Positions 13,762 to 50,031 of a stretch of DNA of 64,000 nt are shown here, piece by piece; position 1 is the first letter of the stretch; each line of letters starts with the position of its first letter. Both the position numbers and the translations under genes were made by a program. The notes under the pieces were generated by a model. The model did not search any database. It had not been told where the DNA came from and worked only from the letters and a program-made list of their open reading frames with translations. Source of the stretch: a virus. The stretch covers positions 1 through 64,000 of the IMG/VR virus record IMGVR_UViG_3300008117_000011, one strand, 5' to 3'.

Positions 13762-14319
13762 TTACATATTTTTAGTTAAGTTCTTTGTTTCTTCATATAT
13801 TATTTGAGGATATGTTTCTTTAACCCAAGTTGTAAGGTCCTGGAATGTTTTAAAATTCATTGGTGTATCAATATAACTTTTAAAATCTATATTATAGTTT
13901 TTAACATCTTCTGTTTTATTATTATGTACGTATTTATCGCTAATTTCAATTGGTAACATTTCATCTCCTTCAAGAAAAGGTGTTGCATAACCATAATACG
14001 AAATCATTTCTTTGTCAGTAAAAACGTTTATCTCAATAGTTACGTAATAATTTCTATCACTACCAAAAACAATTTCAACGTTATCAAACATAAAATTAAC
14101 TTCAGTTAATTTATAACGAATTAAAAGAATAATAATATCACTAATTTTATCTACATCTAAATCAAAAACCTCTAAATCAACATCTTTTAGAATTTTATTA
14201 ATTCCAGTTAAGTTTAGATTAAATTTTTTCATAGTCTTAATAACCCCAATTTGATTAACTGAACTTATTATCATTTTTTGTGTTCTATTTATTTGTGATT
14301 CAGATAATATAACTTTCAT
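13762..14319 (-). CDS. Class B leader protein, GYATPY family
   Basis: The leader MKVILSESQINRTQKMI has LSE-S. Next comes a helical segment (IGVIKTMKKFNLNLTGINKIL) like that of other family members, then a beta-rich body with YYGYATPFLEGDEMLPIE. The GYATP-x-(6)-LPIE motif recurs in 36537 (GYATPYWEGNCYLPID) and, more loosely, in 33613. The three are paralogs of unknown function. Confidence 0.8.
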   Translation of the reverse strand: MKVILSESQINRTQKMIISSVNQIGVIKTMKKFNLNLTGINKILKDVDLEVFDLDVDKISDIIILLIRYKLTEVNFMFDNVEIVFGSDRNYYVTIEINVFTDKEMISYYGYATPFLEGDEMLPIEISDKYVHNNKTEDVKNYNIDFKSYIDTPMNFKTFQDLTTWVKETYPQIIYEETKNLTKNM

Positions 14320-29258: not shown

Positions 29259-29729
29259 CTAATCTATTTCTTCATCCTCACCATTCACTATTTGTTCGGA
29301 ATCTAATACCACCGTTACACTTCTACCAGCAAATGCAGGTTCCCAGGATGCCATTGTTCTAAATGGAAAAAACTTATTCATTTCATCACGTAATGTACTT
29401 ACAAGCCAAGATTCCATATTACTGGTCGGATTATTTGTGTTAAAATGTATTTTAATTCTTACTTTATCTGGTCTATCTTTATTAATTTCTAAATGTAATA
29501 TATCAACATCTTCTATATCTGCATGATAAATAAAACTTTTAACCAACATCTCCTGGGTTTTTAAATCATTTAAATCAAGGTTTAATACCTTTGATAAATT
29601 ATCTATCCCACCAACCGCTTTTGATGTTCTAACAACTCCTAGTGTTTTAATCATATTAGTTAACCTATCTTGACCTTTTTGTGATGTCTCTTCCCTTAAT
29701 ATTCTTCTTATGGATTCATGTATATTCAT
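29259..29729 (-). CDS. Class C leader, NGI-NLxKxL family
   Basis: The leader MNIHESIRRILREETS is followed by a helical domain (MIKTLGVVRTSKAVGGIDNLSKVLNLD), like IKKDGIIPVAKKVNGINNLGKIL in 34142 and the second half of 39709. The C-terminal two-thirds are beta-rich. The helical part could be DNA-binding, but the HTH call is weak. Function unknown. Confidence 0.82.
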   Translation of the reverse strand: MNIHESIRRILREETSQKGQDRLTNMIKTLGVVRTSKAVGGIDNLSKVLNLDLNDLKTQEMLVKSFIYHADIEDVDILHLEINKDRPDKVRIKIHFNTNNPTSNMESWLVSTLRDEMNKFFPFRTMASWEPAFAGRSVTVVLDSEQIVNGEDEEID

Positions 29730-29730
29730 A

Positions 29731-30414
29731 TTACATTACTTTATTTAAAAATATTTTGATTGCGTCTATTATTTTTTGTTCGTTATGGTCAAAATCTTTT
29801 TTGTAAATATTAAAAGGGTCAATTACTTCAAATGTAATTAAAACATCAAAGATTATTGCTATTTGGTGTCTTTCATTGATCCCTTTTTCTATAGCCCATG
29901 TTTTTCCATTTTTTTCAAAAAAAAGGGTTTTAACAATTCTAGATGTTTTTTCATCTCTAACGGGTATTTTTTTAACTTCAAAACGTCTTTTTAAAAAATT
30001 TAGTATTTTTTTAGTTATATATTCAGTTTCTTCTCTTAATACTTTTCTTATTGATTCTTGTAGGTTCGTATATAGTTCTGATATTAATCTTTCATATCTA
30101 ACCTTGATTCTATCTTTATAATATTCTTCTAAACTTTTTTTAGCGTCAACATACCATTGGATATCTCCCGGTATTGTACTATATAATTCATAATGGATCC
30201 CATCAATTAAAATTGAAATTGTTACTTCTACAAATCTTTTTAAACTCATAGCGTCCCCACCATTTTTAATTAAATTAAAAAACATATTTGATGCCATATC
30301 TAATGACTCCTCAAACTCTCTTTCTAAATCCTCGTGTGGTACTCTACGTCGGATTGCTAACATAAAATTGGTTTCTTCCCTTAATATTCTTCTTATGGAT
30401 TCTTGTAGGTTCAT
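29731..30414 (-). CDS. Double-leader fusion protein
   Basis: Residues 1-14 are MNLQESIRRILREE and the next 100 residues are an RRRV family body (AIRRRVPHEDLEREFEESLDM). At about residues 116-129 a second leader appears without a Met (NLQESIRKVLREE), followed by a different 98-residue body rich in K and F. It reads as two cargo genes fused in frame. Cleavage at both sites would give two mature proteins. Functions unknown. Confidence 0.85.
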   Translation of the reverse strand: MNLQESIRRILREETNFMLAIRRRVPHEDLEREFEESLDMASNMFFNLIKNGGDAMSLKRFVEVTISILIDGIHYELYSTIPGDIQWYVDAKKSLEEYYKDRIKVRYERLISELYTNLQESIRKVLREETEYITKKILNFLKRRFEVKKIPVRDEKTSRIVKTLFFEKNGKTWAIEKGINERHQIAIIFDVLITFEVIDPFNIYKKDFDHNEQKIIDAIKIFLNKVM

Positions 30415-32373: not shown

Positions 32374-32709
32374 TTAATCACCACAATGAAGGTGATAGTA
32401 TTGTTTTACTTTATCTCCGAATATATCTTTGATATAATTTTCCATTGCTTTGTATGCCTGTTCCCACTCCGGTGTTGCATAACTAATATGCTCCTCAAAA
32501 TATGCGTAGTACATATCTTCTATTACACCGGCTGTAAGATGTATTAAAACCTCATCCCCATTTCTATAGCGACAAATCTTCTCAGGACGATATGTTGTTG
32601 ACATATGGTAATATATCAAGTCTTCTAAATTAACAATTCTTCTTCTTATGTAGTGCGGAAGATTTGTTTCTTCTTTTAGAACTCTTCTTATGTTTTCTTG
32701 TTGGTTCAT
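32374..32709 (-). CDS. Class C leader, RRR family
   Basis: The leader is MNQQENIRRVLKEETN. The body begins LPHYIRRRIVNLEDLIYYHM and continues helical, ending KQYYHLHCGD. It shares its layout with 34654, 35177 and 35666. It overlaps the next gene's end by 1 bp. Function unknown. Confidence 0.8.
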   Translation of the reverse strand: MNQQENIRRVLKEETNLPHYIRRRIVNLEDLIYYHMSTTYRPEKICRYRNGDEVLIHLTAGVIEDMYYAYFEEHISYATPEWEQAYKAMENYIKDIFGDKVKQYYHLHCGD

Positions 32710-33572
32710 TATTTATTGTGATATATATTATATAACTCTTTAATTTCGTCCTCAAATACATTGGAAACTTCTGTAACAAATTCTATTTCTTCTTCCGATG
32801 GTAAATCTTCCCACCCAAGTTCATATTTATTCCAAATAATTGCTTCCACAGCCCTTAAAGTTAATTCATATTTAAATTGTTCATAACTTTCCGTTTCGTA
32901 ATATACTTGATCGGCATTTATTGGGAGCAGGTATTTAACCTCATCTAAATCAATTCTCCTATGAAAGAATTTTGATTCATTTAATATTCTTCTTATGGAT
33001 TCTTTTAATCCTAATAAATCATCCATACTAATTGTTGCACTATCATTACCTAGTTTATTAAGCATATCCGCAAATACATTAGGTTCTTCAGGTGTTTTTG
33101 GTTCTTCATATTTAGTTTTGTTACTTGGGTATTTTCCTGTTTTTTGATAAACCTCCATATCATCATCTTTTTGTTCGTCAGAACTAATTAATTTAAGAGC
33201 CGAAGGTGGTATTGGGTCTAAAGTTACATAGTATTTAAAATCATTCCCATCATCTTTATGTATTGGGTCATGAAACCATTGGTTATTTATTTTAGATAAA
33301 TCTATTTCCCATTCATCCCCACCAAAAAAACTATATTCAGGGTCTGAAGCAAAGACCATTGGTAATGGGTCTGAATCAGGAAAATTATGAGACATATAAT
33401 TTGAGGTGTATTTACCAACTTTGGGTAATAACCCGTGTTTTTGGATACTTTCTCTATTTTTATACGTTGTTCTATGTCGTAACACCCCTTTTGGATGTGC
33501 GGGAACTAAAACATCTCTTAATTGTTTAACCTCTTCCCTTAATATTCTTCTTATGGATTCTTTTAAGTTCAT
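32709..33572 (-). CDS. ART-like protein fused to an RRI family module
   Basis: The start at 33572 gives MNLKESIRRILREE; the more distal Met lies beyond the RTATTTAT motif. Residues 20-150 resemble an ADP-ribosyltransferase-like or KptA-like fold (VLRHRTTYKNRESIQKHGLLP, VFASDPEYSFFGGDEW, YYVTLDPIPPSALKLI). About residue 190 a second leader without Met (GLKESIRRILNES) precedes an RRIDLDEV body. The enzyme call is tentative; packaged ARTs such as T4 Alt modify host RNA polymerase. Confidence 0.7.
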   Translation of the reverse strand: MNLKESIRRILREEVKQLRDVLVPAHPKGVLRHRTTYKNRESIQKHGLLPKVGKYTSNYMSHNFPDSDPLPMVFASDPEYSFFGGDEWEIDLSKINNQWFHDPIHKDDGNDFKYYVTLDPIPPSALKLISSDEQKDDDMEVYQKTGKYPSNKTKYEEPKTPEEPNVFADMLNKLGNDSATISMDDLLGLKESIRRILNESKFFHRRIDLDEVKYLLPINADQVYYETESYEQFKYELTLRAVEAIIWNKYELGWEDLPSEEEIEFVTEVSNVFEDEIKELYNIYHNK

Positions 33573-33577
33573 ATGTA

Positions 33578-33585
33578 ATAAATAT
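33578..33585 (-). promoter_or_regulatory. RTATTTAT motif
   Basis: ATATTTAT on the minus strand, 5 bp before the ATG at 33572, and 11 bp from the divergent TATATTTG element. Confidence 0.5.
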
Positions 33586-33596
33586 ATTATTATTCT

Positions 33597-33604
33597 TATA
33601 TTTG
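33597..33604 (+). promoter_or_regulatory. Bacteroidota -7 element TATATTTG
   Basis: TATATTTG lies 8 bp before the ATG at 33613. Confidence 0.6.
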
Positions 33605-33612
33605 TGGATATT

Positions 33613-34155
33613 ATGGATTGTATCGTCACCGAAAATAAAAAATCAAACACCATTAAACTTATTCATAGTAAAATAAGTGAGTGGGGAGTAATTGGTGCTA
33701 GTCAAAGACTTGGTCTTTCTATTGATAAGTTTGTTGAACTTGGTGTTTTTAACTATCGTTTTGACACATTTCTTAATTACACAGATCTTCTTTATTTATC
33801 ACTATATGTTGTTGAAAAGAGTGGTCTGGTAAGTAAAGTTGATGAGACTTATGATTTTATGTGGTGGGGTGGGAATTCTAGGATGTATTTTGATTGTGCT
33901 GACTTAATTAATAATAATACTATGGTCGGATATGGAACACCATATTATGATGATATTCCTTATCTGGAGATTGAATCTGAAGTTTTTAATAAGTATTCTA
34001 TTGATTTTCGTAGAACTTATAAGTTAAAGTCCATTTCAGAATTTAAATCATTTAATGAATTTGAATCTTATATCTTAAATGATGTGTCAAAACTTGTATC
34101 AGACACAATCTTTGATGTTATTGAAAGAGTTGAAAGGGAAATTAAGGAAGGGTAA
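33613..34155 (+). CDS. GYATPY-family protein with weak leader
   Basis: The start at 33613 (MDCIVTENKKSNTIK) is supported by the promoter; VTE-N is a possible leader remnant. A helix (IHSKISEWGVIGASQRLGL) aligns with DEWGLWKTIDRLNLN in 36537, and VGYGTPYYDDIPYLEIE with the GYATPY motif. It uses a host-type promoter, unlike its leader-bearing paralogs. Its end overlaps 34142 by 14 bp. Function unknown. Confidence 0.78.
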   Translation: MDCIVTENKKSNTIKLIHSKISEWGVIGASQRLGLSIDKFVELGVFNYRFDTFLNYTDLLYLSLYVVEKSGLVSKVDETYDFMWWGGNSRMYFDCADLINNNTMVGYGTPYYDDIPYLEIESEVFNKYSIDFRRTYKLKSISEFKSFNEFESYILNDVSKLVSDTIFDVIERVEREIKEG

Positions 34156-34657
34156 CTGATGGTTCAAAACTTATAATATAATCATCTTCGTCTAATTTAA
34201 GTTGTCTTGCCAAATCATATGTAAAATCCTCAAATAGATATTTTAACTCCCATTTCATTGCTTTAAGATTAAAACCATCTTCACCATCTTTCAGATCTGC
34301 CAAATCATATGTTTTTTCCTCCCCATTCCTTAATGTAACTGTTACTGTTCCTTCTAATATCTTATAATAAAAGGTCATAGTCCCATACATATCAAGTTCT
34401 ACGTGTCTTATCTGGAATTTAAAATCGTATCCTTCTGTGTAGTCAGATTTAAAGTCATTTGATGAAAATATTTGATTCTGGAGATGTCGTCCAAGAAGTA
34501 TTGTTGGTCTTTCATTTAAAATCTTTCCCAGATTATTAATTCCATTTACTTTTTTTGCAACCGGAATGATACCATCCTTCTTAATCATCTTAAGTAGCCT
34601 GGACTGGATGGATGTTTCTTCTTTTAATATTCTTCTTATGTTTTCTTGTAGGTTCAT
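34142..34657 (-). CDS. Class C leader, NGI-NLxKxL family
   Basis: MNLQENIRRILKEETS leads into LLKMIKKDGIIPVAKKVNGINNLGKIL and then a beta-rich C-terminal domain containing GTVTVTLRNGEEKTYDL, which resembles GTVELIMTNDDRTHNL in 39709. It overlaps 34654 by 4 bp. Function unknown. Confidence 0.82.
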   Translation of the reverse strand: MNLQENIRRILKEETSIQSRLLKMIKKDGIIPVAKKVNGINNLGKILNERPTILLGRHLQNQIFSSNDFKSDYTEGYDFKFQIRHVELDMYGTMTFYYKILEGTVTVTLRNGEEKTYDLADLKDGEDGFNLKAMKWELKYLFEDFTYDLARQLKLDEDDYIISFEPSVTLP

Positions 34658-34983
34658 TTTTTTTTCATATTTCTATAATACATAATAAGAACTGGATCAT
34701 AAACTGATATCATATGTTTTACAAATGTATCTATATCTTCTTTTGGTAATTCTTTCTCAATCTCAATATTGTATTTGTTAAAAATATAGTTCTCTAGCGT
34801 TGCCTCAACTAATTTGTATTTGAACTCTTCTAGTGAGTTTGAATCGTAATACATATATGGAATTCCCTTTCTCATCATTTTCTCAAATTTATGATGATCA
34901 ACCCTTCTAGTGAAAAAATAAGGTAGTTTATTGTTTTCGGTTTCTTCTTTTAATATTTTTCTTATGGTTTCCTGTAAATTCAT
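34654..34983 (-). CDS. Class C leader, RRV family
   Basis: MNLQETIRKILKEET leads into YFFTRRVDHHKFEKMMRKGIPYMYYDSNSLEEFKYKL. The last part aligns with YYETESYEQFKYEL in the second module of 32709, so those two are closest relatives. Function unknown. Confidence 0.82.
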   Translation of the reverse strand: MNLQETIRKILKEETENNKLPYFFTRRVDHHKFEKMMRKGIPYMYYDSNSLEEFKYKLVEATLENYIFNKYNIEIEKELPKEDIDTFVKHMISVYDPVLIMYYRNMKKK

Positions 34984-35176: not shown

Positions 35177-35515
35177 TTATCTATAAATGTGTGTATACTC
35201 TTTTTTGATTTTATCATCAAAGTATTCCGAAAGGGCTGAAAAGGTCTCCTCATGCCATTCTTCATTTTCATCAAATGATGTATATAACTGCCAGTGAAGT
35301 CCATCAATTGTCATTGATATTACAACAAATTTATATCTATCTAAATCTGGTTTTGTTCCAGTTCTTGAGTATTCTCTTTGGAACATTTCTTTTGCTGAGT
35401 CTAATGACGATTCAAATTCTTCTTCAATATCCTCTTGTGAAACCCTACGTCTTATAAATGCCGGAAGTTTTGTTTCCTCTTTTAATATTCTTTTTATGGA
35501 TTCTTTTAAATTCAT
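35177..35515 (-). CDS. Class C leader, RRRV family
   Basis: The start at 35515 (MNLKESIKRILKEE) is fixed by the motif at 35522. The body AFIRRRVSQEDIEEEFESSLDSAKEMF aligns with RRRVPHEDLEREFEESLDMASNMF in 29731, and both continue with a VISMTIDGLHWQLY-type stretch. Close paralogs of unknown function. Confidence 0.83.
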   Translation of the reverse strand: MNLKESIKRILKEETKLPAFIRRRVSQEDIEEEFESSLDSAKEMFQREYSRTGTKPDLDRYKFVVISMTIDGLHWQLYTSFDENEEWHEETFSALSEYFDDKIKKEYTHIYR

Positions 35516-36536: not shown

Positions 36537-37115
36537 ATGAAATATATAATCACAGAAAGTCAATTAAGTAGAACCAAAAACTTTGTTTTTAATAAGATAG
36601 ATGAGTGGGGTCTTTGGAAAACAATTGACAGACTTAATTTAAATATTGATACTCTTGATAGAATTTTTGATGGTGGTATGCCAGATTGGTTTAATTGTGG
36701 TGTACTTAATGATTTAATCAAGTTTTACTATAGTAAAGGAGAAATAAAACTAAATAAAACTAAAGAAATAGATGGTGTTTTATATGGTTTAAAATGTGAT
36801 TGGGATGACTTTGGTAATGCAAACTATTTTAAATTAACTAACTTTGAAACTAAAGAGGGTATTAGCGGTTATGCCACACCATACTGGGAAGGTAATTGTT
36901 ATTTACCAATTGATGCCGAATATTATACATACGATGCTGAAGAAGATTTTAACGAATTTAATTTTCACGAATACGAAACTTTTAATTTAAAAAGTAAATT
37001 TTCTTCTTTTAGGGAATTCAAAGAATACGCCGATAATGAAATCCCTGATATAATAATAAATTACATAGTAAGAATATTACCTAAGACAAGAGAAGAGTCC
37101 GGGAGTTGGGATTAA
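36537..37115 (+). CDS. Class B leader, GYATPY family
   Basis: The leader MKYIITESQLSRTKNFV has ITE-S and is strikingly like MKVILSESQINRTQKMI of 13762. A helix DEWGLWKTIDRLNLNIDTLDRIF and the motif GYATPYWEGNCYLPID follow. Function unknown. Confidence 0.83.
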   Translation: MKYIITESQLSRTKNFVFNKIDEWGLWKTIDRLNLNIDTLDRIFDGGMPDWFNCGVLNDLIKFYYSKGEIKLNKTKEIDGVLYGLKCDWDDFGNANYFKLTNFETKEGISGYATPYWEGNCYLPIDAEYYTYDAEEDFNEFNFHEYETFNLKSKFSSFREFKEYADNEIPDIIINYIVRILPKTREESGSWD

Positions 37116-39121: not shown

Positions 39122-39712
39122 TTACATAAGATTTTTAATTCTTTGGATTTCTTCTTTTACGATTTCGTGACCTCCACCATCTAACTTATCTGTAAAACCC
39201 ATAAGTTTGTCAAATGCCGGATGAGACTGAATTGGTTCTTTCTTTTTATCTTTCATTTGATTCCAGGTAGATGGTTTTACCTTCATATGGTTTTTAACAA
39301 GATATTTGATTTCATCAACATCTGTTCCTTCAAACGAACTAATCCACTCTTTGAATTGGTCAACATAGTCTGCTGACTTATCTTCGTGTCCATATGCTGT
39401 TGGTTGTCCGGTCTTTGGATTAATTGCATAAACATCCATCTTTCCAAGGTCGTGAAACAATGCTGCCATAATCATATTGGGGTCATCTGGGTAATGATGA
39501 TAAGCTCTTTTTAAAACAATAATGATATGTTTTAATGTGTTTCCTTCCGGATGCCATTCAGGGTTTTGTTTTGCACTCCATTGTTTAAATAATAATTCTT
39601 TTAATTCTGGTGTTAGATTTTTAATTAACTCTTGTGGTGTTGCGTGAAGTTTCTCTTCAGATATAATATTCATCATATTTTTAATTGTTTCTATATTTTC
39701 TCTTAAATTCAT
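39122..39712 (-). CDS. HD-domain hydrolase with leader
   Basis: The leader MNLRENIETIKNMMNIISEE ends ISE-E. The body has an HD-type phosphohydrolase pattern: HPEGNTLKHIIIVLKRA, AALFHDLGKMD (the HD pair), YGHEDKSADYV and LVKNHMKV. HD enzymes are metal-dependent and cleave phosphate bonds of nucleotides. The substrate cannot be told. If packaged, it would act immediately after DNA entry. It overlaps 39709 by 4 bp. Confidence 0.82.
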   Translation of the reverse strand: MNLRENIETIKNMMNIISEEKLHATPQELIKNLTPELKELLFKQWSAKQNPEWHPEGNTLKHIIIVLKRAYHHYPDDPNMIMAALFHDLGKMDVYAINPKTGQPTAYGHEDKSADYVDQFKEWISSFEGTDVDEIKYLVKNHMKVKPSTWNQMKDKKKEPIQSHPAFDKLMGFTDKLDGGGHEIVKEEIQRIKNLM

Positions 39713-40647
39713 TTTTTAAATATAACTCTAAATTTAACAAATCCTAAATCACTATCAAGTCTTAATTGTCTAAATAATTCACGATAATTATCATTTAATA
39801 TATCTTGTATTTCATATGTAACTTCCCAGAAATAATCAGCCTCTTGAAATTCCGGATCTAATAAATTGTGAGTTCTATCATCATTAGTCATTATTAATTC
39901 AACAGTTCCTTCCTGGACCTCAAAAATAAAATCAAATCTTCTAACACCAACATCACTATAATCATTATCTTGAATGTCTATAATTTTACCAACAAAGTCA
40001 TAACCACCAGTATCATTTAACTCGTAGGTTGATATTTCTTTTCCTAAAGCAAATTGTTTTAATAGTTCTAATACCGATGTGTCTAATACTTTTGCTAAAT
40101 TAAAAATTCCATTAACTTTTCTTGCGGTTCGGATAAGACCTTCCTTATCAATTAAATCTTTTAATTTTTTTTTTAATGAAGTTTCTTCTTTAAGTATTTT
40201 TGAGATGTGTTCTTTTAAACTATAACTTTCTTTAATGTCTTTACCTAAAAGTACGGCCCAAACACGAAAAAGATCTTCGGAATCCTTTTGTAAAGTTCTA
40301 TTAAAGTTGGCCATATATTTTCTATCAAACTCATCATAATCATCGGTTTCTTCATCGCCGGTATTTTCATTGGCCTTTGATATTTTCATTTGGACTCCAA
40401 CTTTCATAAGTCTTTCCATATTATCGGCCATATCTAGTAACTCTTCAAAATTTTCCTTATCTGGAATATGTTTATACTTAAATTCGTGTTCCAGTCTTTC
40501 TCTTCCGATATAAAGAAATGATGGTGCCTGCCACATATTAATAATCCCAGAATCTCTTAATACTTTAAAAAATTGTGATACCTTTTTAAAATTATAAAAT
40601 TTATTTAAGGTTGTCATTTTTTTTCTTGCCTCTGTTTTTGCATCCAT
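39709..40647 (-). CDS. Two-module cargo protein with internal leader
   Basis: The N-terminal module (residues 1-145) lacks a leader but has IGRERLEHEF and FEELLDMADNMERLM, like the RRRV family. About residues 146-161 is a leader without Met (YSLKEHISKILKEET), followed by KDLIDKEGLIRTARKVNGIFNLAKVL, the NGI-NLxKxL family. It therefore fuses the two major cargo families in one frame. Function unknown. Confidence 0.8.
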   Translation of the reverse strand: MDAKTEARKKMTTLNKFYNFKKVSQFFKVLRDSGIINMWQAPSFLYIGRERLEHEFKYKHIPDKENFEELLDMADNMERLMKVGVQMKISKANENTGDEETDDYDEFDRKYMANFNRTLQKDSEDLFRVWAVLLGKDIKESYSLKEHISKILKEETSLKKKLKDLIDKEGLIRTARKVNGIFNLAKVLDTSVLELLKQFALGKEISTYELNDTGGYDFVGKIIDIQDNDYSDVGVRRFDFIFEVQEGTVELIMTNDDRTHNLLDPEFQEADYFWEVTYEIQDILNDNYRELFRQLRLDSDLGFVKFRVIFKK

Positions 40648-41050: not shown

Positions 41051-41599
41051 ATGAAACCTAAATTTTATATATTGTTTTGTTATTTTACTATTGTGTTTGG
41101 TTTAGGTCTGTACGCATTTACTTTAAGTAAACAAGAAAGAGTACGTAAAATAGAATTGTCATATTGTTCAATGTATGATACAAGAACGCCAACATCTCTT
41201 AAAATGTACGCCTTAATTGAAAAGTACTCTTCAGAATATAATATACCAAAATATGTTGCTTATAACGTTGCGTACCGGGAAACAAGGTATATGGGTCCGT
41301 TCCATTGGAGATATAATCCCTATCAAACGTCTTGTGCCGGCGCTGAAGGGCCAATGCAGATTATGATTAAAACTTGTAATGGGTTAAATAAGTCAAGATA
41401 TTCAAAGAAGGAACTTAGAAGAAACCTTGAGTTAAATGTACGTACAAGTATGAAACTTCTTAATCGTTTACATAAAAAATATAAAAACTGGTCGGTTGTA
41501 TGTGGTTGGTACAATACCGGTAGACCTATTGTGAATGAGTATGGTAAGTACTGTGGTACAAATCTAAATTATAAAACCAAGTGGATTCAATTAGATTGA
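41051..41599 (+). CDS. Lytic transglycosylase (SLT domain)
   Basis: An N-terminal membrane anchor or signal (residues 6-25) is followed by an SLT fold: YIKVAY-type helix with the catalytic Glu in AYRETRY, GAEGPMQIM, ELNVRTSMKLLNRL and CGWYNTG. These enzymes cleave the glycan strands of peptidoglycan in the periplasm. Paired with 40719 under a host-type promoter. The end overlaps the convergent 41587 gene by 13 bp. Confidence 0.88.
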   Translation: MKPKFYILFCYFTIVFGLGLYAFTLSKQERVRKIELSYCSMYDTRTPTSLKMYALIEKYSSEYNIPKYVAYNVAYRETRYMGPFHWRYNPYQTSCAGAEGPMQIMIKTCNGLNKSRYSKKELRRNLELNVRTSMKLLNRLHKKYKNWSVVCGWYNTGRPIVNEYGKYCGTNLNYKTKWIQLD

Positions 41600-44094
41600 T
41601 TCCCTCTATATATAACAATGTTGGCCCTAGTAATTCTTTTATTGGGTCCGACATTGTATCCTTTTTCTTTAAACTCCTCATTAAAGAATTCTCTAAAAGC
41701 TTCCTTAAATATATCCCCAATCCATCCTCTTGTTCTAATTTTACTCTCAGCTAAATCCATTATTTTAAAATCATAAGCCAGAGAGTTATTTTTAACATCA
41801 TAATATCCTAAACAATTCTCACCCTTATTATCCCCAAAAATAAAAAGTTTTGTCTTTGAGTCATTATAAGAATAAGATTTAAGTTCTTTTTTTAAAATCT
41901 TCTTAATTGCATTTTTTAATATTCTTTCACTTTTTTCTTCATTCTCATTAAGACCTCTTTTCTTTCTTCCCTGACAATGCGCTCTTTGTGAAAACCCTTG
42001 TGGATTATTACAATCAATACTTCTTTTATATTTTTCAGACCACTTTTCATTAACCTCTTTTTGGTTTGCAATTTTTCTGATACTTACAATTTTAACACCC
42101 TCACCTTTATTTTTAAGTGTGACCTCGTTTTCATTTGGGTAAAGTAAATTGTTATATATTGTTTGGTCAATATCCACCAATTCTTTTGGCGCAAGAACTG
42201 TGATCATAAATGAATTATCTCCAATACCATCAGCAAATGAGTGACTATCTAACAAATCTTTTTTGTTTTTTGCATAGTGATCTCCGGGTTTATCCGTATC
42301 AATATCTTTTCTATCGTCCGCTTTTATTATTCTAAATAATTTAATTTCTTCAGGTAGATTCTTAATTGATTTAATAATATATTCAATTTCTTCTTTTGAT
42401 TCTTCTTCAGAATAGCCCATATGTTTTTTACCTTGGTCTATTAAACTTTTCAATTGTTTTTTTGATAAGTTGAGTGGATCTTTTACTTCGGAAATAACTT
42501 TTTTTTTTCTTAACGATTCTGTAATCGTATTTTGTTTTTCAATTTCATCATTTAATACTCTTACAAATTCTCTTTGTATAGCTTTTGTTAGTTCAACATA
42601 AGTTCTAATTTCAGGTTCCTTTTCTTCACCCTCGGATCCAATTGATTGATTTTCTTTTTCAATAATTTTCATCGCAGCTTCAATTTGTTTATCTGACAAC
42701 GAACCAAATTTATTGTATTTGTATTGTAAATCATTTACAAATTTATTTGTCCCTAAATAATTTAAAATTGGTTTTACCTCATCTGGGGTATTCATTTCAA
42801 ATTTTACTGGGTTATTACGATACAAATATGAAAGACCTGAAATGTTTGTAATACATTTGTGACCACCGGAGTTTGCTTGAACTATATCCCAACCATTAAT
42901 AGATATTTTATTTAAAAGTTCTTTTTGTTTATCAGATAATGTTCTATATAGTTTTGTTGAGATGTTCTCAATAATTCTTAAAATATTTTCGTTCACACCT
43001 TTAGTACTAAAAGATTCTCTATTTCCATAAAGGGCCACAAAATCTTTATAGGTAAAACCAACAGAAGAATAATCTGTTTTAAATTCTGACAATTTTTTAA
43101 TCTCACCAAATGTAATCTTCATATCTTTAAGTAAAGTTTCAAATTTACTTAATACAACATCTTTCATTTTACCTAAATCAACCCCTTTAAGTGCTCTATC
43201 TTCTTTGAATGGGTTACAAGAAGCTTGGACTAGACCTAGTGGCCAAGCAATAACAATAAAGTCAGCATCTGGATTATTTTTAAATGGTGTGTATCTATCA
43301 TATGACCCAGGTTCTCTCATATTACCACCACCATATTGCACGATGATATTACCAAGCCTTTTTACTTCACCACTTTGTTTTTGTTTTTCAATATATGCTT
43401 CTTGGTTTTTTGTAAGTTCATCAGTATTAGCATAACCCTTATCTTTAATTTGTTTTTTAATATTATTTAAAATACTTAAAAGTGATGGTTGTGCATTCAT
43501 TACAATGTAATCTAGAAACCCCGGTTTGTTTTTAAATGCTAAAAGCAATTTATTTGCAACAAGACCCATCTTAATTTTATTTGCTCTTGACGTATCACTT
43601 GGGTCAAACTTGAATAGGTAGTTCATAACCATTTCTGGTGTAATCTTATTTACAGCAAAGTTTGCTGAGTCAACAATTGATATTAACTGAACATCTTCAT
43701 CCGGAAATATTAATGATGGTGATACAACTTGTGAAATAGTTTCAACGTTTGATCTTGATGGTCTAAAGTTTGTTGATGTTCCAGCTTCAACACCGGCTTG
43801 TGTGTCGTGATGATCTGTATGGATTTCAAACATTGGTTTTCCGTGGGCAAAGTCAACAAGTACTGGCATAACTTCTCCGTGAGCATCCGCTTTCTTAATT
43901 GACCATTCTTTATCACCATATTGGATTAATTCTGCGTCAACAACTTTGATTCCGTATTTTTCTAAATAGTTTTTCATTGCTAGGGCTGTAGTAACCCCAT
44001 CAAGATCCATATGATAATATATCTTAGCTTTCTTATATCTTTGTGCTAATTTATTTATATTTCTGATTCCAGATTCTTTTAAAATAGATTTCAT
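41587..44094 (-). CDS. DHH-like phosphoesterase fused to ART-like domain, multi-leader
   Basis: The start MKSILKESGIR is leader-like (LKE-S). Residues 20-290 look like a DHH phosphoesterase: DLDG at 30-33, VDFA at 80-83, HTDHHD at 92-97. Residues 524-538 hold an internal leader (ITESLRKKKVISE). Residues 540-675 resemble an ADP-ribosyltransferase: LFRII, a SHSF segment and PNENEVTL with an ExE. Then SIDCNNPQGFSQRAHC, a Cys/His motif I recall from large-phage proteins, another basic helix, and a 100-residue C-terminal domain. Processing would release separate enzymes. T4 packages its ART Alt in a similar way. Confidence 0.75.
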   Translation of the reverse strand: MKSILKESGIRNINKLAQRYKKAKIYYHMDLDGVTTALAMKNYLEKYGIKVVDAELIQYGDKEWSIKKADAHGEVMPVLVDFAHGKPMFEIHTDHHDTQAGVEAGTSTNFRPSRSNVETISQVVSPSLIFPDEDVQLISIVDSANFAVNKITPEMVMNYLFKFDPSDTSRANKIKMGLVANKLLLAFKNKPGFLDYIVMNAQPSLLSILNNIKKQIKDKGYANTDELTKNQEAYIEKQKQSGEVKRLGNIIVQYGGGNMREPGSYDRYTPFKNNPDADFIVIAWPLGLVQASCNPFKEDRALKGVDLGKMKDVVLSKFETLLKDMKITFGEIKKLSEFKTDYSSVGFTYKDFVALYGNRESFSTKGVNENILRIIENISTKLYRTLSDKQKELLNKISINGWDIVQANSGGHKCITNISGLSYLYRNNPVKFEMNTPDEVKPILNYLGTNKFVNDLQYKYNKFGSLSDKQIEAAMKIIEKENQSIGSEGEEKEPEIRTYVELTKAIQREFVRVLNDEIEKQNTITESLRKKKVISEVKDPLNLSKKQLKSLIDQGKKHMGYSEEESKEEIEYIIKSIKNLPEEIKLFRIIKADDRKDIDTDKPGDHYAKNKKDLLDSHSFADGIGDNSFMITVLAPKELVDIDQTIYNNLLYPNENEVTLKNKGEGVKIVSIRKIANQKEVNEKWSEKYKRSIDCNNPQGFSQRAHCQGRKKRGLNENEEKSERILKNAIKKILKKELKSYSYNDSKTKLFIFGDNKGENCLGYYDVKNNSLAYDFKIMDLAESKIRTRGWIGDIFKEAFREFFNEEFKEKGYNVGPNKRITRANIVIYRGNQSN

Positions 44095-45917: not shown

Positions 45918-46611
45918 ATTTTTCCATATATTTACTATCAATTATGATTGTCTTTGCTTTTTTAGTTACAAGATTTATTTGATCAAGAACAATTCTGTTG
46001 TTACCATCTCTATTTAAAACTAAAGTCCCAGAACCACCCGGTTCGTTATGAATATTTAAATCAATAACTTCCTTTGCCACATTTAATACCCAATTATGAA
46101 ATGATGTTTCACCAAAAAACATTTCATAATATGATCTAACATTCATAATAGATTTGTTTGTTGATGTACTAACCTCATCTACTATAAAATCACCATACCC
46201 ATAAGTAAAATCAATAAGTAATGTATCATAACTTTTTATATAATTAAATAATCGTTCAGATGTGTTATCCGTGTATTGAAATTCTGTTGTCTTTTCTTTA
46301 TTTTCTCGTGCGTCATATTTTGCAACTAAAATTATTTGTCTTTTTTGTGGGTCTATTGTCACATCACACCACCAGGTATTATCCCAATATTCTACTTCCT
46401 CGGTAAACATTTCACTTCCGTGATCTTCTACTAATTTTATTATAAAATCTTCAAAGTAATCTAAAATAGGAACTTTAAATCCTTTTTCAGACCAAAATGC
46501 TGATGGAACATATTCAATTCTTTCAGAATACATATCAATATTAACCCCAATAGGTCCAATTGGATTAAGATATGCCATAAGTGCTTTAAATGTATTTTTA
46601 TAATTCATCAT
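45910..46611 (-). CDS. Tandem paralog array, member 1
   Basis: The N-terminus NTFKALMAYLNPIG is a variant of the shared KxLKxxxAYFRGF start. The body has a WWCDVTIDPQKRQI strand, a DFTYGYGDF motif, and ends with a strand-rich tail. Last of six genes chained by 1-14 bp overlaps. Function unknown. Confidence 0.8.
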   Translation of the reverse strand: MMNYKNTFKALMAYLNPIGPIGVNIDMYSERIEYVPSAFWSEKGFKVPILDYFEDFIIKLVEDHGSEMFTEEVEYWDNTWWCDVTIDPQKRQIILVAKYDARENKEKTTEFQYTDNTSERLFNYIKSYDTLLIDFTYGYGDFIVDEVSTSTNKSIMNVRSYYEMFFGETSFHNWVLNVAKEVIDLNIHNEPGGSGTLVLNRDGNNRIVLDQINLVTKKAKTIIIDSKYMEKYD

Positions 46612-47308
46612 TAAAATTATCTAGTGTTATTTGAATATTCATATCTGTAGGTTGATATTCTTCTTCAAATTCATATCCATCAATTAATACTTTACCATTT
46701 GCGTAAACAATAATTCTACCTTTAAAACCATTTTCACCATTCCAATAAAGATTTACATTACGTTTCATAATATCGTTTACAATGACCCAGTATCTATCTT
46801 CATCTTCACTATCAATTCTTGCGTCTATATCGTTTACATAAGCTTCAAATACTTCACCGTCATCCCATCTTCCATAAAAATGTAATTCAAGTTTTTTAAT
46901 AATATCATCTTCAAATATGTCATAAATAATTTCTTTTGTTCTTGTAGTAATATCATCAAGATTTACCATTTCCTTTTTTTTAATTGATATTTCTTGCTTA
47001 CACTCACTTGTAAAAACAATTCTATTTTCAAAAGGATATATTAAAGCGTATAAATACCAAAGTTCACTATATTCATAATCGTTATATTTTCTAAATTCTG
47101 GTGTAATTTTATTTAGTATTTCACTAAAAATTGAGATAATTGTGTCCGGAGGAGTTACAAGTGATTTTTGTCCGTCACTTTTTCTAAAGTAAAAATGCTT
47201 GTTCCAGTCTGGTTCAATTGTGTTTACATCAAATGGAATATCTGTGTCTACAGTTTTTACTTTTAGACCTTTAAAATACGAAAAAAACATTTTTAATTTA
47301 TTCTTCAT
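46598..47308 (-). CDS. Tandem paralog array, member 2
   Basis: MKNKLKMFFSYFKGLK start; then NDYEYSELWYLYALIYPFENRIVFTSECK, which matches NDYNEDDWWSLEVSIYPFENEIHFTSECK in member 5; then a KLELHFYGRWDDGEVFE strand. Function unknown. Confidence 0.83.
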   Translation of the reverse strand: MKNKLKMFFSYFKGLKVKTVDTDIPFDVNTIEPDWNKHFYFRKSDGQKSLVTPPDTIISIFSEILNKITPEFRKYNDYEYSELWYLYALIYPFENRIVFTSECKQEISIKKKEMVNLDDITTRTKEIIYDIFEDDIIKKLELHFYGRWDDGEVFEAYVNDIDARIDSEDEDRYWVIVNDIMKRNVNLYWNGENGFKGRIIVYANGKVLIDGYEFEEEYQPTDMNIQITLDNFNDEL

Positions 47309-47993
47309 CTTCTTGTTTTAAATTATCTAGTGTAACTACAATGTCTAAACTTTCGGTAACATCATCATTTGTATTCCATTCGTGCATAACTTCAATATGG
47401 TTTCTTGTAACTTCAATTGTTCCTTGGGATCCTTCATTTATCTCCCAACCACCAAAATCTTCAAGTAACTGATAACAAATATTTTCAATTTCTCTAGTTA
47501 TTGTTCCAGATTTTTTTCTTGAAGAATAACTATCGTGAACTTGTCCACTATCGCCACCACCATCGTAAGTTATTTCAAGTGAATCAATTCCTTCTTTATC
47601 TAAAAATTTATCAAATTCTTCAAAATACTGAGAAACACTTTCACCATCTTCATCCCTATCATAATATATTCCAGAATCTTCTGTTCCATACTGAGTAAAA
47701 TCTGTACTTTCAAAAACTAATCTATCTGGATATATTGTCCCATCAACAGTAAAGTAATCACTTCCATCACCATAACTTCCAAGCCCACCATCATATAAAT
47801 CTTCAGCGTACAATTCAGCGATATCATAAAATATTTGCTCCATATTTGATGACATCTGAAATCCTGGGTTTTTTGCACAAGTAAAATCTATATAATCAAT
47901 TGAATCTCCATCATTATAAAATTGTATTGTAAAATCAATGTTACAATTTAGACCTCTAACATACCCTAAAAGGGCTTTAAATTTTTTATTCAT
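47298..47993 (-). CDS. Tandem paralog array, member 3
   Basis: MNKKFKALLGYVRGLN start; SLEITYDGGGDSGQVHD and FGGWEINEGSQGTIEV match member 6 (QFSGYGDSGEIHE, FGGWEIDDGSRGEFEI). Acidic overall. Function unknown. Confidence 0.83.
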   Translation of the reverse strand: MNKKFKALLGYVRGLNCNIDFTIQFYNDGDSIDYIDFTCAKNPGFQMSSNMEQIFYDIAELYAEDLYDGGLGSYGDGSDYFTVDGTIYPDRLVFESTDFTQYGTEDSGIYYDRDEDGESVSQYFEEFDKFLDKEGIDSLEITYDGGGDSGQVHDSYSSRKKSGTITREIENICYQLLEDFGGWEINEGSQGTIEVTRNHIEVMHEWNTNDDVTESLDIVVTLDNLKQEDEE

Positions 47994-48681
47994 AATCTTC
48001 TATATTATTTGGTGTTAATTCTATTCTCATATTACTCGGAAGTAATCTTTCTTGATGGTGTTTGTAGCTTACTTCTATTTTATTCTTTTCTATTCTCACG
48101 CTACCACTAACTCCGTCAATTCCCCATTCAATAGATTGATCTACAACATCCATAATGTTTTGAGCTATATCATAATATTTCTCTTCAATATTTGAGTCTA
48201 ATTCATAAATGTTTTTTTCATCACCATTTATATTCAAATTTGTAACTTCACCTTCATCTACACCCATCCAAAAATCAATTTCAATAAAATTATTATCGTC
48301 TTTTATATGTTTTTCTAATTCAACAATAGCCCAATCCTGCAATCTTTTTAAATATGTTTTTTTTTCTTTTTTTTCTGTAAATTTTTGATAGTCTTTGGCG
48401 GTAACAATTATTTGATTATCAAATGGTCTAATAGTAATACTTAAAATCCAATAATCAGAATACTCCCTTGAAACATTGTCTAAAATTTCTCTTTTTAATT
48501 TTCTACTAAAAAGTGATTTTATTGCATTGTTAATTGTTAAATTCGTATTCGTTTCTTTACCATCAATCATACAAAGTCCGTCATCATTAAATTCCCAATC
48601 AACCATATCAAATTCTATATCGGCTCGTGGTTTATTAAAACCCCTAAAATAGGCTAATATCATTTTTAATTTATTTTTCAT
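47986..48681 (-). CDS. Tandem paralog array, member 4
   Basis: The start MKNKLKMILAYFRGF at 48681 is preferred over two upstream Met codons that lie in the tail of member 5. The body contains YWILSITIRPFDNQIIVTAK and EIDFWMGVDEGEVTNL. Function unknown. Confidence 0.82.
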   Translation of the reverse strand: MKNKLKMILAYFRGFNKPRADIEFDMVDWEFNDDGLCMIDGKETNTNLTINNAIKSLFSRKLKREILDNVSREYSDYWILSITIRPFDNQIIVTAKDYQKFTEKKEKKTYLKRLQDWAIVELEKHIKDDNNFIEIDFWMGVDEGEVTNLNINGDEKNIYELDSNIEEKYYDIAQNIMDVVDQSIEWGIDGVSGSVRIEKNKIEVSYKHHQERLLPSNMRIELTPNNIEDYE

Positions 48682-49366
48682 CCGTATCATCAAAAAAATC
48701 TGGCGTTATTGTAATGTCCATATCTGTATTGCCCCATTCAACAAGTCTGTTCTCAAGGTCAAGGAAAATATCATCACCCCATATTGTGATATCTCCAGTA
48801 AAACCACCATCATCGGTCCAGTATTTTCCATAATTTTTTGACATTAACTCGTATGTTACATCGTGAAATAACATATCAAGTTCATTTGTTGTTTTAATAA
48901 ACTTGTCATCAAAAAGAATATTAAAAATTTCAACATCCCAAATACCTCTAAAATCAAACTGAATTTTTGTTAAATTATTTTCTTCTTCAATTTCGGTTAT
49001 CTTATCCTGGAATTCTTCAGATAAATCAGAAAACTCCATTTGTAGTTGTTCTGGAACTGAATTTGCGTATTTGCACTCACTTGTAAAATGTATCTCATTT
49101 TCAAATGGATAAATACTAACTTCTAATGACCACCAATCATCTTCGTTATAATCATTATAATGATGAAATGTTGGCATAAGTTTTTTAATAACCTCTTCTA
49201 TAATATCACGAATTGGTTTTGCCGGTTCTATAAACTTTCTAGTACCACCTAAAGATATATCACTAAACTCTTCAATTGTGTTATAACCAAAAGTTACGTT
49301 GAAAAACAACTCCTCTTGTTTAAACCCTCTAAAATATGCAAAAAGTGCTTTTAATTTATTTTTCAT
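48671..49366 (-). CDS. Tandem paralog array, member 5
   Basis: MKNKLKALFAYFRGFK start; WWSLEVSIYPFENEIHFTSECK; FDFRGIWDVEIFNI; ending DITITPDFFDDTDEK. The C-terminal IT(L/P)DNxxD pattern is shared across the array. Function unknown. Confidence 0.83.
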   Translation of the reverse strand: MKNKLKALFAYFRGFKQEELFFNVTFGYNTIEEFSDISLGGTRKFIEPAKPIRDIIEEVIKKLMPTFHHYNDYNEDDWWSLEVSIYPFENEIHFTSECKYANSVPEQLQMEFSDLSEEFQDKITEIEEENNLTKIQFDFRGIWDVEIFNILFDDKFIKTTNELDMLFHDVTYELMSKNYGKYWTDDGGFTGDITIWGDDIFLDLENRLVEWGNTDMDITITPDFFDDTDEK

Positions 49367-50031
49367 TCGTTTAACATATCTTCGGTTATTTCAATTGGGT
49401 CCTGACAATCGTTCCAGACTCTCTGCTGCCAAGTTTGTTCTATTGTAATCATTTTTGTTGTTCCATAATACTCAGCAATTTCAAACTCACCTCTGGATCC
49501 GTCATCTATTTCCCATCCTCCAAATGCGGCTTCTAATCTGTCATAAAGATAATTTAATAGTTTTTCATATTCACCACCCCATCTTACAATTTCGGTTTGA
49601 CCATTAATTTCAATATCCTCGTGTATTTCACCGGAATCACCATAACCACTAAATTGTCCTTTTACAGATTCAATACCTTTTTCTTTAAGAAATTCTAAAA
49701 CTTCTTCATCTCTTATGTCATCAGAATATGTGTCAGGTTGTTCGTCAAAATTTTCACATCTAACACTATAAAACATTTTATTTTCAGATGGTTTTAAATC
49801 TAAAGTAATACTTTTATATTCTGTTTCACTATAAAGTTGTTCTATATCATATTCTTCAGCTAAAAATATTGCAATACCAGTTATTATATCTCTAATATTT
49901 CCTGGTACTGACATATTACTACTAAAGCTGTACCAGTCAACTTCTCCATCATAATATGCAAAAGAAAATGATATATTATCTTTCTTTAATGACTTAAAAA
50001 AAGACATTAGAACTTTAAATTTTTTTTTCAT
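49363..50031 (-). CDS. Tandem paralog array, member 6 (first in operon)
   Basis: MKKKFKVLMSFFKSLK start behind an RTATTTAT motif; body with QFSGYGDSGEIHE and FGGWEIDDGSRGEFEI. It lacks the ExS-type leader, but the conserved basic amphipathic N-terminus could act as a different targeting tag. Function unknown. Confidence 0.83.
   Translation of the reverse strand: MKKKFKVLMSFFKSLKKDNISFSFAYYDGEVDWYSFSSNMSVPGNIRDIITGIAIFLAEEYDIEQLYSETEYKSITLDLKPSENKMFYSVRCENFDEQPDTYSDDIRDEEVLEFLKEKGIESVKGQFSGYGDSGEIHEDIEINGQTEIVRWGGEYEKLLNYLYDRLEAAFGGWEIDDGSRGEFEIAEYYGTTKMITIEQTWQQRVWNDCQDPIEITEDMLNE

Follow-up and report, generated by a model that had tools for sequence, protein, structure and literature searches.

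A cargo ORF with an internal, Met-less leader in a T4-like jumbo phage, probably encoding a two-cargo polyprotein

We analyzed a stretch of viral DNA of 64,000 nucleotides (the window; positions 1 to 64,000 of IMG/VR record IMGVR_UViG_3300008117_000011) and identified an ORF in which a second copy of the N-terminal leader, lacking its methionine, lies between two unrelated bodies. This fused ORF probably encodes a two-cargo polyprotein whose leaders function in capsid targeting and cleavage as in phage T4, with leader DNA that would also serve as a recombination site. The source is a T4-like jumbo phage of ~305 kb. Coordinates are given in Table 1.

The fused ORF and the origin of its joint

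ORF 29731-30414(-) consists of 227 codons without a stop, and both halves have the GC1>GC2>GC3 pattern in its frame. Residues 2-14 (NLQESIRRILREE) form a leader of the class referred to here as C. Using a position matrix trained on N-terminal copies of this leader, we recovered the Met-less class C copy that had been reported in the middle of the protein (NLQESIRKVLREE, aa 117-129). It scores 41.5 bits; in 200 shuffles of the whole phage proteome the maximum averaged 11.3 and the highest value was 21.9. Over 42 nt (leader plus next codon), the N-terminal and internal copies differ at five bases; three changes are silent, and two give conservative replacements (K for R, V for I). The residue that precedes the internal leader is threonine (codon ACG).

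The joint can be compared base by base with that of relatives, which read ...CTATAA-T-ATGAACCTACAA, i.e., a stop, one base and the next leader gene. The window reads ...CTATATACGAACCTACAA, with one base fewer and ACG in place of ATG. For example, the joint DNA of locus L049 is TCAGAACTATAA T ATGAACCTACAAGAA and that of the window is TCAGAACTATATACGAACCTACAAGAA; L075 has TAATATG, as in L049, and TATACGAACCTACAA stands in the window where both of these loci have TAA-T-ATGAACCTACAA. The missing base brings the two genes into one frame and abolishes the stop. Gene fusion through loss of both the stop and the start, as proposed, is thus shown at the base level. Leader genes in general are so tightly packed (118 of 173 begin -4 to +5 bases from the preceding stop) that fusion is a short step. 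The stop of the fused ORF itself is followed after 1 nt by the ATG of leader gene 29259-29729.

As the shift in frame relative to relatives amounts to a single base, a sequencing or assembly error could have removed the stop and start, an outcome that the original prediction had regarded as fatal. We consider such an error extremely improbable. The window is part of a viral record of 223,671 bp, and a second contig, IMGVR_UViG_3300031951_000024, overlaps this record at both ends, giving a joint circle of ~305 kb. The two are 100% identical across the 12,681 bp surrounding the fused ORF, and elsewhere differ by substitutions and small indels; thus, they are not one assembly copied twice. In addition, the ATG is altered as well as the stop, and Met-less fusions recur across many samples, with 28 other Met-less internal leaders (see below).

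Table 1. Features of the fused ORF and of related leader proteins in the window.
Feature	Position	Strand	Score or remark
Two-body cargo ORF, fused, 227 aa	29731-30414	-	identical in second assembly
N-terminal leader MNLQESIRRILREE, aa 1-14, predicted cut after L-R-E (aa 13)	30373-30414	-	leader matrix; T4 gp21 [LI]xE rule
Body 1, aa 15-115, helical; homologues in other phages and a paralogue here	30070-30372	-	
ACG codon; stand-alone leader genes have ATG here	30067-30069	-	
Met-less internal leader NLQESIRKVLREE, aa 117-129, predicted cut after L-R-E (aa 128)	30028-30066	-	
Body 2, aa 130-227, mixed alpha/beta model, low confidence	29734-30027	-	
Next leader gene downstream of the fused ORF; weaker paralogue of the third fusion's last body	29259-29729	-	
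Second fusion: leader, modelled KptA/Tpt1-like ADP-ribosyltransferase-fold body, internal leader, body related to 34654-34983	32709-33572 (ORF 32709-33653)	-	
Internal leader GLKESIRRILNES of second fusion	32973-33011	-	24.8 vs shuffle maximum 21.9
Stand-alone leader protein, paralogue of third fusion's last body	34142-34657	-	E 5.8e-15
Stand-alone leader protein, paralogue of second fusion's last body	34654-34983	-	E 6.6e-10
Stand-alone body 1 paralogue with own leader and stop	35177-35515 (or to 35551)	-	E 3.5e-20
Third fusion: leaderless first body, internal leader, body related to 34142-34657	39709-40647	-	
Internal leader SLKEHISKILKEE of third fusion	40183-40221	-	21.3, upper edge of shuffle range

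The two bodies have no relationship to each other, and the leader was found to lie exactly between them, as had been claimed. Body 1 homologues in other contigs share 60-68% identity, and several are single-body proteins of 118-127 aa; in alignment, the stand-alone forms terminate 2 or 3 residues short of the leader position (...KRLMSEL and a stop in L049 vs ...ERLISELYT-NLQES in the window). Body 2 homologues (30-35% identity) occur nearly all in single-body frames of 110-145 aa, and the aligned ones begin with a leader of another class that is directly followed by the body. Separated homologues of both halves are therefore present in related phages as stand-alone leader proteins. The leader of body 2 is of class C here and of a KELIRNILKEE type in relatives. 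Values of dN/dS for body 1 vs its homologues are 0.42-0.74, so strong purifying selection cannot be claimed.

Searches of Pfam and PHROGs assigned no function to body 1 or body 2, and a PDB sequence search returned nothing credible. When the whole fusion or body 2 was used as a protein query against viral contigs, only the same phage was found, and an alignment-based scan of viral contigs, which identified 69 loci, was needed. A tblastn search against named phages yielded no convincing match, and bacterial genomes yielded no relative. AlphaFold predicts body 1 to be helical (high confidence) and body 2 to be mixed (low confidence). The model of the fusion has no significant match among PDB structures; one viral match, A0A6J5L9M1, is an uncharacterised phage protein.

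Internal leaders and exchange of bodies in relatives

We searched the relatives for internal leaders using the first nine leader positions only, withholding the later ones, where [LI]xE, the motif after which T4 head proteins are cut, is expected. This identified 33 non-redundant internal leaders at 20 loci, 28 of them without a start codon, where shuffled sequences would give 0.35 matches. The motif is present at the withheld positions in 27 of the 28 Met-less copies, compared with 1.5% per position in bodies. The sequences thus show that fusion at an internal Met-less leader recurs among relatives, and ORFs at L052 and L053 have as many as three leaders each. Counting these 33 copies and the window's three, 34 of 36 joints have at least one flanking body that is also found elsewhere and has its terminus at the joint position; in 15 this applies to both bodies. 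Weaker internal matches that were in fact leaders of a different class, N-terminal and read in a shifted register, were dropped in a stricter search.

N-terminal copies are more numerous (192 non-redundant), short, conserved and common to unrelated bodies. The motif occurs at the withheld position in 135 of the 192, as it does in both leaders of the fused ORF; an N-terminal subclass with NIxRIKxMMG departs from it. About a quarter of class C N-terminal leaders in relatives belong to this second subclass (MNLQENIxRIKxMMG...), which was not observed internally. Per-position conservation in N-terminal leaders does not correlate significantly with that in internal leaders (Spearman), a comparison blurred by the second subclass. 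Depletion of [LI]xE in the cargo bodies is also not significant (p 0.09); thus, the motif alone does not single out a leader, a point against the polyprotein reading.

These counts bear on two other explanations of the internal copy. The first is that it is a neutral or bifunctional scar, the protein remaining uncut and the leader of the former second gene now being a helical linker. AlphaFold places the internal leader within one long, continuous helix (aa 86-144) that joins the two domains and could equally be a stable linker. The exact pairing of bodies is private to one phage, as body 1 and body 2 were found together in no other phage searched. Both observations were counted against the polyprotein reading. 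However, internal leaders across the clade retain the peptide while the -1 residues and flanks vary, with [LI]xE kept in 27 of 28 copies, and they occur between many unrelated bodies. On balance we consider a scar rather unlikely. The second explanation is internal translation initiation, by which body 2 would also be made with the second leader as a second N terminus. ACG is a rare, weak start, and ATG or TTG is kept before 5 of the 33 internal leaders, but other codons (e.g., GAT, AAA, AAT, GAG, CCA) precede the remaining 28, making this highly improbable.

The DNA of the leaders also looks like a recombination joint. In several pairs of fusions, identity is 62-100% across the leader and the 50 aa preceding it, yet the bodies that follow are unrelated: among others, identities of the upstream part, leader and downstream part are 100%, 100% and 25% for L088/L091, 100%, 92% and 12% for L045/L095, 94%, 85% and 18% for L052/L109, and 80%, 85% and 19% for L062/L053. 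In these four pairs DNA identity stops at the final leader codon. Leaders also keep the unusual codons AAC, CTA, TCC, ATA and AGG, although the bodies that follow are unrelated or very diverged. For example, CTA stands at 73% in N-terminal and 55% in internal leaders (vs 9%), TCC at 80% and 68% (vs 8%), and AGG at 86% and 81% (vs 16%). Body swaps at the leader end, together with the kept rare codons, suggest recombination between leader copies. Alternatively, the codons may be kept by selection on the nucleotide sequence itself. Under the recombination reading, the 39-nt leader DNA, near-identical before many unrelated bodies, would be a site of homologous recombination at which bodies are exchanged and joined in tandem.

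Two further fusions were identified in the window (Table 1). The second body of the third fusion has stand-alone paralogues at E 5.8e-15 and 2.6e-4. For the second fusion, the model of the first body resembles KptA/Tpt1, in the ADP-ribosyltransferase superfamily (Foldseek E 5e-4 and probability 1.00 for several Tpt1 entries, with TM-scores of only 0.3-0.4). T4 packages an ADP-ribosyltransferase, Alt, and injects internal proteins (IPs) that inhibit restriction enzymes (PMC5512222, PMC12373910). By this analogy, host-directed cargo is a reasonable guess, and no more.

Several other ORFs are also of note. ORF 41587-44094(-), of 835 aa, has a DHH-like N-terminal part (Pfam DHH, E 0.001), one region related to bodies found singly in other contigs, and the leader-like strings NTITESLRKKKVISE and ILKNAIKKILKKEL; it is perhaps a three-body chain. 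A leader-like string in this ORF scores 16.1 as an internal leader, within the shuffle range, and was left out of the count. By eye, 13762-14319, 36537-37115 and 34142-34657 have similar bodies and different leader classes (MKYIITESQ, MNLQENIRRILKEE), as though one leader class could replace another. At 46598-50031(-) lies a tandem array of five proteins (222-236 aa) that resemble one another at the N terminus (MKNKLKxxxxYFRGF and similar). Beyond the window, at G000 106210-108820, are three adjoining cytosine-methyltransferase-like ORFs with near-identical N termini (NVLSLFDGxSCGQIALN).

Head genes and predicted processing

Genes for a T4-type head, including terminase, were identified in the part of the circle that the second contig alone covers. 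That part encodes matches to the portal protein (Portal_T4, gp20; E 7.2e-75) and to capsid protein Gp23 (E 4.7e-73). The gp21-type prohead protease (L034, 14669-15427) matches Peptidase_S77 (E 1.9e-22) and a PHROG for head maturation protease (1.6e-43). A PF03420 search of the window's own record was negative because the head genes sit in the private part of the second contig. The capsid protein has LINE/ATSEG (the slash marks the cut) at the position corresponding to the cut in T4 gp23, and LINE/A[TS]S is kept in all 41 relatives examined. The protease gene was found in 12 of 16 large leader-bearing contigs, and the same 12 carry gp23. The 268-kb contig G048 (L237) has S77 protease and gp23 matches at two distant places, and may be chimeric or have two head modules.

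In T4, cleavage follows L/I-X-E, and the first ten residues of IPIII are enough for incorporation into the head (PMC9026906). By analogy, the short amphipathic leader would act like the capsid-targeting sequence (CTS) of T4 internal proteins and carry the protein into the prohead core, where a gp21-type protease would cut after [LI]-x-E. The N-terminal leader would target the whole fused chain; the cut at the internal leader would free body 2, with perhaps some additional targeting by this copy. Cleavage after L-R-E in both leaders would yield two mature proteins. Since [LI]xE stands at both ends of the leader (LQE in front and LRE at the end, each kept in 27 of 28 internal copies), the leader may be cut out altogether: if the front LQE site is also used, the octapeptide SIRKVLRE would be released. 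A point against the polyprotein reading is that body 1 would still carry the leader at its end if only one cut were made. We infer packaging, cleavage and injection of this cargo from these likenesses.

Because the Met-less copies keep [LI]xE and the phage has its own S77 prohead protease, the sequences strongly suggest that putative cleavage, rather than translation start, sets the mature ends. If so, an internal copy needs no start codon, and ATG could turn into ACG.

The leader could instead be a conserved helix of another kind, such as a peptide that docks with a host or phage protein, with the internal copies as further docking sites. The link between leader and head is putative, and the leader has features beyond [LI]xE (e.g., an invariant Ile at position 6). 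Against this, [LI]xE lies close to the N terminus in several leader classes of this phage that otherwise differ, the matching protease and the conserved capsid site are both encoded, and T4 and SPN3US have similar leaders (PMC9026906, PMC5694885). We therefore regard docking as quite improbable and favor targeting and cleavage. More broadly, CTS leaders may have two further roles, as internal cut sites and as recombination joints: through homologous recombination at the 39-nt cassette, the clade would build combinatorial cargo polyproteins that are split in the head by the prohead protease; for this wider proposal the arguments for and against are evenly balanced.

Relation to known systems and significance

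The nearest known systems are the T4 CTS, the propeptides of phiKZ and SPN3US, and polyvalent proteins. T4 IPI-IPIII and Alt, the CTS of which is cut by gp21, likewise have a short conserved N-terminal leader on unrelated proteins with an [LI]-x-E end, and gp20/gp21/gp23 head genes are common to both phages. The phage described here differs in having several leader classes, numerous leader proteins, and leaders also between two or three bodies, with targeting and cutting that are putative. phiKZ and SPN3US (propeptides cut by gp175/gp245) are similarly jumbo phages in which many head proteins are processed, paralogues within a family can be near-identical at their N termini, and a propeptide has several cut sites. 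Their propeptides are mostly long and N-terminal with the motif A/S-x-E, and in the descriptions consulted a repeated leader between two cargo bodies does not appear.

Polyvalent proteins of phages and conjugative elements (e.g., P1 DdrB and N4 virion RNAP) have several effector domains per chain, are delivered with DNA, and have already been compared with viral polyproteins. The fused ORF has two unrelated bodies in one chain that may be delivered. Polyvalent proteins are thought to be cut by a metallopeptidase domain of their own (PMC5512222), whereas no peptidase match to the fused ORF was found in Pfam or PHROG. Here, cutting would probably fall to the prohead protease, a separate protein, with the targeting leader itself marking the boundary. 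Polymorphism of T-even internal-protein genes, as described in papers that cite Repoila et al. (1994), involves many alternative genes with one conserved signal sequence; here, unrelated bodies appear to be exchanged at the leader inside ORFs to give fused chains. A full-text literature search, with thin coverage of subscription papers and bioRxiv, returned no account in which capsid-targeting leaders lie within proteins and act as joints of a polyprotein. Reuse of leaders as internal joints is thus possibly new, although this is not proof of novelty.

If the polyprotein reading is correct, this clade delivers host-directed proteins as polyproteins, with the capsid protease taking the place of a built-in peptidase, and has a simple way to shuffle its arsenal of delivered proteins. 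An internal Met-less leader with [LI]xE would then be a sequence rule by which uncultured jumbo phages could be searched for injected proteins and for the mature ends of these proteins, useful where most such proteins have no database match. The diversification of injected anti-defence proteins in such phages would become directly testable.
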